The notes under the pieces were generated by a model that saw only the letters and a program-made list of their open reading frames with translations, was not told the origin of the DNA and did not search any database. Both the position numbers and the translations under genes were made by a program. Shown piece by piece: positions 18,890 to 22,495 of a stretch of DNA of 35,546 nucleotides. This DNA is from Thermoplasmata archaeon (GTDB taxonomy: Archaea; Thermoplasmatota; Thermoplasmata; Thermoplasmatales; ARK-15). Numbering within the stretch: the stretch's first letter is position 1; each line of letters starts with the position of its first letter. The stretch lies in contig JAVYRZ010000002.1 of assembly GCA_038729465.1 (NCBI GenBank), forward strand, positions 82,601 through 118,146, given 5' to 3'.

Positions 18890-18980
18890 CATTTCTTAAA
18901 ATTATATCAGAAAGCCAACTAAAAACAAACCTAAAAATTATAGGTCAAGAATTATGATCTTTGGACAATATCAGATCTTT

Positions 18981-19105
18981 GTTGATAATTTAATATTATT
19001 TCATTATGCCGAAGCCATAGGTTTTATCCGGATCATTTAATTTGCATTGTTTTCAAAACAAGTGAGCTGTGTTAATTGATAATATTTTTCAACAGATACT
19101 TGACA
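18981..19105 (-). repeat. left copy of ~125-bp inverted repeat flanking the oxidase operon
   Basis: Read on the minus strand, this stretch matches 22077-22201 at about 106 of 126 aligned positions by hand. It includes the uninterrupted blocks TTAACACAGCTCAC and AATGCAAATTAAATGATCC. It lies between the dehydrogenase start and the oxidase start (a 298-nt gap) and contains no credible ORF. On the minus strand this copy also holds GGC-TTCG-GC, a possible UUCG tetraloop hairpin that is not preserved in the other copy. Confidence 0.85.
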
Positions 19106-19125
19106 GCGCCGATTTTTGGAAATAT

Positions 19126-19133
19126 TAATATAA
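19126..19133 (+). promoter_or_regulatory. candidate TATA box of oxidase operon
   Basis: TAATATAA is centred ~27 nt before the oxidase ATG at 19157, consistent with a leaderless start. It lies just inside the left inverted repeat. Confidence 0.45.
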
Positions 19134-19156
19134 TACATATTTATTAATTATATATT

Positions 19157-20713
19157 ATGACTAAAAGCCAGGTTGTTTTTGCAGGTGTTTTTGTAGTATC
19201 ATCATTAGCAACACTGGGCGTAGGTGTGAATAACGCAAATCTTGCTGAGATTATTACTATTGTAGGTATATATGTTCATGCTTGGTTTTTGTCTTTTGCA
19301 CTTGGACTTCCCTTGATAGTACTTACTTATGAGGCTCTTGCAATAAGAAAAAAAGATCCTGAATATATGAGAGCCGCTATAAGAGGCAGTAGAGTATGGG
19401 GGATATCTTTCGCTACAGGTGCAGTTACTGGAACACTAGTCGAATTTGGGCTGGTACAGATATGGCCTGGATCTCTATTAGCAATTGGTACATTTTTCTT
19501 CGCGCCTATGTTCATAGAACTTTTTGCATTTATGGCAGAAATTGTGTTTCTTGCACTTTATTTATATACTTGGGATCAGTTTAAATATAAGTGGAAGCAC
19601 TGGATACTTGGAATAGGAGTAGGTGTAGGGTCTATCTGGTCAGGTTTTCAAATATTAACAGTAAATGCTTGGATGAACGTTCCTTGGGGTACTGGCTCAA
19701 TAGTGCAACAAGTATTGCCTTGGGAACCTAATTTAGGGCCAAATGTTGTAAACAATCAGGCGCTTTTAAAAATACTTAGTTTATTGCCCTCTACAGGCTC
19801 TAGTATATTAGGTAACCTTAGCACCGTACAAACTCTTGGGCAGTTGCTTACAGATCCATTTATCTCATTTTTCTCACCTGATACGATCCCGTTATTTTTG
19901 CACACAGTTACAGCTGCAATAATCGTAATAGGATTCTTAGCATGTTTTATCTTGGCAGTAAAGTATTTCAAAAATAAATCTAAAAAGGCTTATTACGCCA
20001 AGCTCATAAAAATACCATTTGGAGTAGCTGCAATTGCATCTTTATTGCAGCCACTTTTTGGGGACTTTGAAGGTAGAGTTGAGTATACATATATGTATAC
20101 CAAGTTTCTGGCATTAGAAGGCATCCCAGCACAGGGTGGAAATAACCCAATTATTAGCATATTACTGTATGGCAATCCCAATCACTTTTTCTATGGATTC
20201 GATTATTTGAAAACGCTTGTTTCAAAATCTATCTCCCCTGGGATGGCGCTTTATACAATAAACTTTGCACAACAGAACCAGTACTGGCTCAGTCCTCTCT
20301 ACTTGATCATGGTAATATTTGGAGTGATTTTGTTTATATTTGCCATCATTTATTTTGGCCTTTTTTCCAAGATCATAAACAAACTTGTGAGAACGGTGCT
20401 AAGAAGGGATACTATAGACATACTGTTTTATGGATCCCTCGTCCTACCTTTTATTGCAATAACAGCTGCAATTATAGGGTGGATGGTTAGAGAAGTAGGC
20501 AGGCACCCATGGAGCGTTCTTGGCCTCATCACATATAATGAAATTGTGACCCCTGTCAATCTTACAATATCCTATCTTGCATTGATATTATTTATTGAAC
20601 TTTCAATTTTCATTGGCGGAACTATTGCAATGTACGTATCGTTTCAGTGGAAAGTAAAGGAAAAAACAATATCTATAGAACCAGAACCAGAATTTCCAGG
20701 TGATAAAAAATGA
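19157..20713 (+). CDS. cydA: cytochrome bd-type oxygen reductase subunit I (CydA)
   Basis: A 518-residue membrane subunit that oxidises quinol and reduces oxygen to water. Likely heme and proton-path residues by comparison with E. coli CydA are H41 (H19), E121 and E128 (near E99/E107), H249 (H186), M385 (M393), and E446 in REVGRHPW (E445 and the GRQPW motif). The quinol residues K252/E257 correspond to K316/E321 in TKFLALEG. NAWMNVP matches the conserved NGWMQNP. About nine membrane segments are seen, and the Q-loop is short. The second subunit overlaps by 4 nt (ATGA). The operon is bracketed by inverted repeats. Confidence 0.88.
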   Translation: MTKSQVVFAGVFVVSSLATLGVGVNNANLAEIITIVGIYVHAWFLSFALGLPLIVLTYEALAIRKKDPEYMRAAIRGSRVWGISFATGAVTGTLVEFGLVQIWPGSLLAIGTFFFAPMFIELFAFMAEIVFLALYLYTWDQFKYKWKHWILGIGVGVGSIWSGFQILTVNAWMNVPWGTGSIVQQVLPWEPNLGPNVVNNQALLKILSLLPSTGSSILGNLSTVQTLGQLLTDPFISFFSPDTIPLFLHTVTAAIIVIGFLACFILAVKYFKNKSKKAYYAKLIKIPFGVAAIASLLQPLFGDFEGRVEYTYMYTKFLALEGIPAQGGNNPIISILLYGNPNHFFYGFDYLKTLVSKSISPGMALYTINFAQQNQYWLSPLYLIMVIFGVILFIFAIIYFGLFSKIINKLVRTVLRRDTIDILFYGSLVLPFIAITAAIIGWMVREVGRHPWSVLGLITYNEIVTPVNLTISYLALILFIELSIFIGGTIAMYVSFQWKVKEKTISIEPEPEFPGDKK

Positions 20714-21867
20714 TTTTTCCGTCGTTTTCAGGTTCCGTATTAATGGCATTTTATTTGCTTGGCTTTACATTGATAGCCCATCTCTTTTTAGTTAATATAG
20801 TACTTGGTATTGCAATATTAGTGCCATTTTTAGAATGGAGAAGTTATAAGAAAAACGACCCGGAACTTTTAACTTTGTCCCAGAGACTGTTCAAATATCT
20901 AGCAGTATCAGAGCTTGTAGCTGGTGTTTGGGCTACTTGGGTAACTATCGTTCTGGCAGGGTACTGGAGCACGTTATTGTTTATTGCAACATCAAAGTTA
21001 TTTATGCCAATAACCATCGCATTAATAGGAATCTTAATTTCGATACCAAGTATGGCATCATATTACTATCTATGGGGGAAAGTAAGACACTCTGTACATC
21101 TATTAATCGGCGTATTAATGATCATTGGAGCGGCGATGGTACCCATAGGGTTTAACTATATCTTTACTTTTATAGATGATCCTGTAGGGCTGAGTTCCAC
21201 AAATGTATGGAATGTGATGTTTAATCCTTTATATCCAGATTTTACACTGCATCGGATACTTGGTGGTATAATAATAACTACCATGATATTTTCAGCGCTT
21301 TATGCAATAAAGTATGTAAAAAGCACAAACGAAAAAGAGAAAAGTATCTATGTCAAAGGAGTGAAATATGGTCTTTATATAGGTGTTCCTGCACTGATCT
21401 TGCAAACTGTTATTGGGATAATATACGCTATAGAGCTCACACAATACGCTCCTTATATATCCAGTGCGGTCTTTGGCGGTATTTATAATTCTTCAGTGCC
21501 AACATACTATCAATTTACACCACTTTTCATTGTGTTCATGATAGTAATTGCCATTATATGGATTGGAAGCTTTTATAACCTAAGAGCCCTAAAAAGATTA
21601 AAATTTCACAATTCAATATCGTACATGCTTTTAATTGCAGCTATAATAGGATTACCGTTAGGTGAGTACTTAAATGATGCTTCCAGGTTTCCATATTTTG
21701 TTATAACAGGCAATACGGGAATACCTGCTTCTAGTTTTATAAATACGTGGATGACTATACCTGACAGCTTTGCTTACGTGGCGATAGTAATCTCTGGTTT
21801 TTTGATGATTATGTTCTGTATACTTTTATACTGGGTATTCATAAAAGCTTTTAAAGCTAAAATTTAA
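20710..21867 (+). CDS. second oxidase subunit, CydA paralogue (CydA'-like)
   Basis: A 385-residue membrane protein in the position of CydB but with sequence features of a second CydA. H24 in IAHLFLVNIVLG followed by EWRSYKKNDPE lines up with HAWFLSFALG and EALAIRKKDPE of subunit I. H181 in FTLHRILGGI lines up with H249, PLFIVFMIVI with PLYLIMVIFG, and SRFPY with the GRHPW motif. The acidic residues matching E121/E128 and the quinol K/E pair are absent. This is the arrangement described for archaeal CydAA' oxidases, in which a degenerate CydA replaces CydB. It starts inside the cydA stop (ATGA). Plain CydB is the alternative label, but the paralogy is visible in the sequence. Confidence 0.75.
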   Translation: MIFPSFSGSVLMAFYLLGFTLIAHLFLVNIVLGIAILVPFLEWRSYKKNDPELLTLSQRLFKYLAVSELVAGVWATWVTIVLAGYWSTLLFIATSKLFMPITIALIGILISIPSMASYYYLWGKVRHSVHLLIGVLMIIGAAMVPIGFNYIFTFIDDPVGLSSTNVWNVMFNPLYPDFTLHRILGGIIITTMIFSALYAIKYVKSTNEKEKSIYVKGVKYGLYIGVPALILQTVIGIIYAIELTQYAPYISSAVFGGIYNSSVPTYYQFTPLFIVFMIVIAIIWIGSFYNLRALKRLKFHNSISYMLLIAAIIGLPLGEYLNDASRFPYFVITGNTGIPASSFINTWMTIPDSFAYVAIVISGFLMIMFCILLYWVFIKAFKAKI

Positions 21868-21903
21868 CAATTTTTTATTAAATTTTTTAGCACATTTTTT
21901 TAA
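21868..21903 (+). terminator. T-rich terminator after oxidase operon
   Basis: Three T runs (21871-21876, 21883-21888, 21895-21901) directly follow the last stop codon of the operon, a typical archaeal U-rich termination signal. The rest of the ~400-nt gap up to 22268 is AT-rich and holds the right inverted repeat. Confidence 0.6.
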
Positions 21904-22076
21904 TCTTACATCAAAATTTTTCGTAACAACATATTGCAAAAATTAATTGGTTATTATTTAGAATTTATCAAATCCATAACATTGAGTTAATTGCCCGCTG
22001 CAGTTTTAAAATTATAATTTATATTTAGATTAATACGGGTTTTAAACGAAAGATTACAAAATCAATTCAGTGGATT

Positions 22077-22201
22077 TGTCAATTCTCCTTTGAAAAAATT
22101 GTCAATTAACACAGCTCACATATTTCGAAAACAATGCAAATTAAATGATCCAGATAAAAGCTATGTGTGTCGGCAAAATGAATTAACATTCGCTTATCAA
22201 C
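22077..22201 (+). repeat. right copy of ~125-bp inverted repeat flanking the oxidase operon
   Basis: The plus strand here matches the minus strand of 18981-19105 at about 84% by hand alignment, with one single-base gap in each copy. Both copies run from TGTCA to TTATCAAC. No target-site duplication or long terminal inverted repeat could be recognised at its ends. A 69-codon open frame over it is not credible as a gene. Confidence 0.85.
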
Positions 22202-22267
22202 GGAGAGTTGACATCTTCATTTCAACAAAAATAATAAATAATGGAAACAAATATAGGTGGAGCAAAA

Positions 22268-22495
22268 ATGAAAACCTATTTAAAAATAACATTTCATAGT
22301 GAAGGAGCAAAACCAACAGAGATTGAGGCACGGTTAGAAGCGCTAGGATTCAGACCCCTCACTGGAATATATGATTTTGTATATGAATGGGGCAACAGCG
22401 CAACTGTTGAAGACGCTTTATGGTTTGCAGATAAAATACATGAAACCCTAAAAGGGTTAGACGTGTTATTCGAACTAGAAACTTCTAACGACTAA
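22268..22495 (+). CDS. small conserved archaeal protein, function unknown
   Basis: A 75-residue soluble acidic protein beginning MKTYLKITFHSEGAKP and containing GIYDFVYEWG, FADKIHETLKG and LFELET. The alternation of strands and helices suggests a small ferredoxin-like alpha/beta fold. It looks like a conserved archaeal small protein, but I do not recognise a named family. The ATG at 22268 is preferred over 22241 because GGTGGAG (22256-22262) lies just upstream at Shine-Dalgarno distance. It lies 66 nt after the right inverted repeat and is convergent with the Rpp21 gene. Confidence 0.7.
   Translation: MKTYLKITFHSEGAKPTEIEARLEALGFRPLTGIYDFVYEWGNSATVEDALWFADKIHETLKGLDVLFELETSND

Follow-up and report, generated by a model that had tools for sequence, protein, structure and literature searches.

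Inverted repeats around the cytochrome bd oxidase genes of a Thermoplasmata archaeon: a MITE family, its probable Mutator-like partner and TnpB-bearing relatives

In a window of 35,546 nt from a Thermoplasmata archaeon (the whole stretch of DNA that was analysed), two similar sequences in inverse orientation stand on either side of a pair of cytochrome bd-type oxidase genes. A sequence-only reading of this locus had offered four explanations for them: miniature mobile elements, the ends of a mobile oxidase cassette, the arms of an invertible switch, or two copies of a small RNA or leader. The question is whether the repeats belong to the oxidase genes at all, or reached this place independently of them.

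Extent and dispersal of the repeat

The inverted similarity was borne out by BLAST. When 18970-19125 was used as a query against the organism's own genome (1.34 Mb in 40 contigs), positions 18981-19105 matched the reverse complement of 22077-22201 (G000:C2:104677-104801(-)) at 84% identity over 125 positions on the minus strand (E=7.7e-32). A repeat search of the window returned arms at 19016-19088 and 22093-22165 with 90% identity. The uninterrupted block of identity, previously given as 19 nt, exists and by direct reading is 25 nt long (GGATCATTTAATTTGCATTGTTTTC). The borders drawn earlier, at about 125 bp, were too short: both elements extend outwards to terminal inverted repeats (TIRs), so that copy A occupies 18964-19110 (+) and copy B 22072-22218 (−), 147 bp each, as located by BLAST, profile search and direct reading.

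In copy A the left TIR (18964-18985, +), recognised from the family consensus and by direct reading, pairs with the right TIR (19089-19110, −) at 14 of 22 positions; in copy B the two ends (22072-22093, + and 22197-22218, −) pair at 17 of 22. Copy A lies between GATCTTTG (18956-18963) and GATTTTTG (19111-19118), a target-site duplication (TSD) that agrees at 7 of 8 positions. The flanks of copy B, AATTCAGT (22064-22071) and ATTTCAAC (22219-22226), agree at 5 of 8 and represent a decayed TSD. Neither copy contains an ORF of at least 75 codons, in line with the earlier statement that the repeats carry none.

The similarity is more than shared AT-rich, low-complexity sequence, for the same query found nine further copies in the genome with E values from 1e-10 to 1e-50. 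In total, BLAST marked 11 places at E<=2e-10, and a profile built from nine copies matched 14 places at E<=2e-6, 9 of them at E<=6e-26. The genome holds about 10 copies of the family. They occur genome-wide in both orientations and have a well-conserved interior; a copy was looked for in the four genomes of the organism's own taxonomic family and not found. The family TIR is about 22 bp long (consensus GAYRTTGTCAAATCTTCGTTGA) and has decayed to different degrees in different copies. Perfect 8-bp TSDs flank three other copies (C15, CAAAATTG; C1, CATTTTTA; C10, CATGTTTC), and no recognisable TSD was found around five others in the same genome. A target duplication of 9 bp was considered and dropped for 8 bp, given the symmetric ends seen in a related genome (G057) and in the autonomous insertion sequence (IS) described below.

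The copies are intergenic and promoter-proximal. In sampled DNA that is 86% coding, ten copies were analysed and none of them falls in a clear gene; a longer variant, at C10, reaches 19 bp into the end of a putative ORF. A start codon was found within 75 bp for 9 of the 10, whereas the same holds for 37.5% of intergenic positions taken at random (p=0.001, an approximate value, as a simple ORF caller was applied to stretches chosen around such elements), and the median distance to a start codon was 45 bp for the copies versus 118 bp for random intergenic positions. The element thus tends to land just upstream of genes.

These repeats are short, end in TIRs, lack a transposase gene, are dispersed, are flanked by TSDs and have ends in common with an autonomous transposon. 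Copies A and B are therefore almost certainly two independent insertions of one family of miniature mobile elements (MITEs), that is, of a 147-bp non-autonomous, gene-less transposon presumably mobilised in trans. Among the four earlier explanations this is the one that stood: TIRs, 8-bp TSDs, about ten copies spread through the genome and, in related genomes, an autonomous partner IS all support it. The remaining three found no support.

The bracketed oxidase genes

Both genes between the copies match cytochrome bd oxidase subunit I (Cyt_bd_oxida_I, PF01654), the first at 19157-20713 (+; E=2.9e-64) and the second at 20710-21867 (+; E=4.9e-20), where subunit II would be expected. For one gene of the window, the two best solved homologues include TA0175, a Thermoplasma protein. 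The repeats bracket the two oxidase genes in position only: 204 nt separate the stop codon of the second oxidase gene from copy B, which lies just upstream of the gene that follows. Downstream of copy B, the ORF list gives an 84-aa frame (22241-22495, +) with no match in Pfam or NCBIfam; its true start may be the ATG at 22268, which is preceded by GGTGG.

A composite transposon carrying the oxidase genes, with A and B as its ends, would fit the inverted copies on both sides of the operon and the differing gene neighbourhoods of the oxidase pair in relatives. However, each copy is complete with two TIRs of its own, and a near-perfect TSD directly flanks A itself. The 8-mers on the outer sides, GATCTTTG and ATTTCAAC, differ where a cassette would show a single outer duplication, and therefore give no sign of insertion as ends of one unit. 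The two oxidase genes are also adjacent in relatives from this family and order, where their neighbourhoods differ and no such repeat accompanies them. These neighbourhoods are unrelated, so no empty site could be read from synteny. A mobile oxidase cassette is accordingly very improbable.

An invertible segment between A and B, acting as a promoter or operon switch, would draw on the inverted orientation and the 25-nt identical block. We consider it the least probable of the alternatives, as the copies are only 84% identical, about ten of them are spread over the genome in both orientations, they end in transposon ends with target duplications, and the neighbouring genes that were scanned include no recombinase.

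The well-conserved interior and the nearness of copies to start codons could also suggest that A and B are copies of a small RNA, a leader or another regulatory element. Against this, no Rfam family was matched, folding was no better than that of shuffled sequences except for the TIR pairing of B (z 0.1, 0.5, −1.5 and −2.7), and target duplications account for the dispersal without an RNA function. As a primary explanation it is about as improbable as the cassette, although copies may have a secondary regulatory effect on downstream promoters. Cassette, switch and small-RNA pair are all left unsupported, because relatives have the oxidase pair without the repeat and because A and B do not match in their outer flanks.

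Under independent MITE insertion, by contrast with a cassette, the bracketing is coincidental. By our own arithmetic, about ten copies in 1.34 Mb are expected to yield roughly 0.2-0.3 pairs within 3.1 kb by chance, and more with a promoter preference, so the arrangement needs no further explanation.

The partner insertion sequence and its transposase

Of 117 genomes of the order, 22 have the 18-mer core of the TIR with at most one mismatch, far above a reversed-pattern control, which gave 2 sites in all. In several related genomes these ends bound an autonomous IS of about 1269 bp with the MITE's ends and perfect 8-bp TSDs (L199, CTTATTTT; L201, TAAACTAT; L205, CTTTTTAC; L206, TAAAAATC; L207, CCTAAATG; L208, GGTTCTTG). 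Its only gene is an intact open frame of 400 codons, or about 379 if counted from the first methionine-like start; in the copies L206 and L208 the transposase gene is interrupted. The interior of the MITE shows no clear derivation from this IS.

In the encoded transposase an N-terminal zinc ribbon is joined to a DDE domain, in which D151, D210, C234xxH237 and E344 are invariant among eight sequences. A structure model of moderate confidence (mean pLDDT 68, above 90 in the core) places the first aspartate in beta1 of an RNase H core and the second just after beta4, and has a helical insert, about 100 residues long, between the latter and the glutamate; its best Foldseek matches are retroviral integrase cores. 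DDE residues, a C(2)H motif and a helical insert characterise prokaryotic Mutator-like transposases (PMC3942029). The partner combines these features, including the long helical insert, with an AT-rich 8-bp duplication: across 22 target duplications the A+T content is 71%, and their symmetrised consensus is about YAAWWTTR. We thus place the transposase in the Mutator superfamily, in a separate ISH6-like subgroup. It is not an ISH6 member, because ISH6 is the closest curated family but its NCBIfam model scores only 35.2 bits (E=5.7e-9) against a cut-off of 240.

ISH6 itself (p-MULT 2) is similar in having a DDE domain with C(2)H and helical insert, archaeal hosts and an AT-rich 8-bp duplication, AANATNTT, and its describers suggested a preference for promoters or intergenic DNA (PMC3942029); besides the low model score, it differs in that the target motif of the present IS is merely similar to AANATNTT.

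A relative of the partner transposase was searched for in the 40-contig assembly of the organism and none was found; donor IS and MITE were thus not seen together in this genome, and the IS is known from related genomes only. The missing transposase fits the decayed ends of the MITE copies. Given this absence and the decay of both ends and TSDs, the copies are probably stranded relics that are now immobile.

Other transposase genes were considered as partners. An apparently intact 474-codon DDE_Tnp_1 frame in the same genome (C34:8547-9968) is unrelated to the window repeats and was rejected, as no such ends surround the gene. At a contig end (L144 3-1117), a TnpB remnant and a copy of the inverted repeat directly follow an IS5-family transposase gene; this gene was set aside as one contig-end case with its left end out of view. 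The ends also serve a second, independent MITE family of about 154 bp in G057, with 8-bp TSDs. Such elements, with a different interior, were observed in G057/G058 at L163 2792-2936, L156 7388-7533, L157, L158 and L160-L162.

As to mechanism, we infer mobilisation of the MITE in trans by an ISH6-like transposase. A DDE transposase of the Mutator superfamily would recognise the inverted ends of about 22 bp (GACATTGTCAAATCTTCGTTGA) and carry the MITE into AT-rich DNA near promoters, duplicating 8 bp of the target. The oxidase genes are bystanders: by chance, two insertions went into the spacers on either side of them.

TnpB-bearing relatives

In the organism's own genome, remnants of the zinc-ribbon end of TnpB, an RNA-guided nuclease, were found inside longer elements with the same ends (C26:11909-12319, C7:23380 and C3:86047). 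In related genomes the full form measures about 1.24-1.42 kb; between its two TIRs stands a single gene, tnpB, which has about 397-420 codons and fills the element from end to end. Such TnpB-only elements were observed in several genomes of the order, at L155 1252-2497, L164 2205-3447, L093 2923-4167, L255, L256, L262, L267, L268 and L272, most of them with perfect 8-bp TSDs. TIRs together with 8/8 TSDs were read at L262, L268, L254/L093, L255, L256, L164 (two elements), L267, L272 and L275; in ten elements, some of which have internal deletions, the two 8-bp duplications are identical. The closest named TnpB matches are from Thermoplasmata MAGs. Another TnpB remnant in the own genome (C40:4028-4477) belongs to a different lineage without these inverted repeats and was not counted as a family member.

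TnpB remnants suggested an IS605-type origin. Elements of the IS200/IS605 or IS607 type have neither TIRs nor TSDs; the TnpB-bearing relatives have both, which ruled out this origin. TnpB-only elements of prokaryotes are likewise described as lacking TIRs and duplications (PMC3627910). The relatives resemble those of the IS1341 group in having TnpB as sole gene and an RNA-like 3′ end, and depart from them in their TIRs and TSDs (PMC3627910). In the papers searched, we found no literature on TnpB within prokaryotic TIR elements.

Conservation at the DNA level is unusually high at the 3′ end of tnpB, which folds into two stems, the last of them formed by the inverted repeat itself. An omega-RNA-like structure from the last ~90 nt of tnpB into the TIR was observed at L155:1252-1421(-) and in relatives, and in the own genome at C26:12150-12319, where the remnant provides one supporting sequence for covariation. 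Among ten related sequences, a small sample in which coding constraint overlaps the signal, compensatory changes affected both partners of five base pairs, compared with one at most in shifted controls, and the covariation score was reached by none of 500 shuffles. This structure, which ends at the end of the element, is likely an omega-RNA.

We lean slightly towards a reading in which the MITE family arose by reduction from a hybrid archaeal transposon, with TnpB as sole gene between Mutator/ISH6-like ends. The omega-RNA scaffold would run from the 3′ end of tnpB into the TIR, and the guide would begin with the 8-bp TSD and continue into the flank. A DDE transposase would mobilise the TnpB element in trans, and TnpB would cut the empty site, helping to retain the donor copy.

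As a kind of element, the MITE is ordinary. Archaeal MITEs that depend on a trans-acting IS are known from Haloquadratum (PMC3119063); those are likewise short and gene-less, have TIRs in common with a known IS and TSDs of its length, and in some cases their transposase is absent from the host genome, but they involve another IS family and another host group. The present MITE family and its partner IS are new: no description of the family was found in the papers searched, and Thermoplasmata gains both together. For the locus itself, the oxidase operon is very probably neither a mobile nor a switching cassette, and the repeats around it are transposon relics, whose promoter-proximal landing habit could alter the expression of neighbouring genes. 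The TnpB-bearing relatives are a more surprising lead than the MITEs of the window. Fanzor-bearing TIR transposons and Pack-MULEs similarly hold a TnpB-type nuclease or a gene fragment between the ends of a DDE transposon, but they are eukaryotic, whereas the present elements sit in archaea and have the ends of a prokaryotic Mutator-like IS. TnpB between DDE-transposon ends is thus a prokaryotic parallel to Fanzor in eukaryotic transposons, and these relatives make it testable whether TnpB can serve a transposon other than IS605 or IS607.
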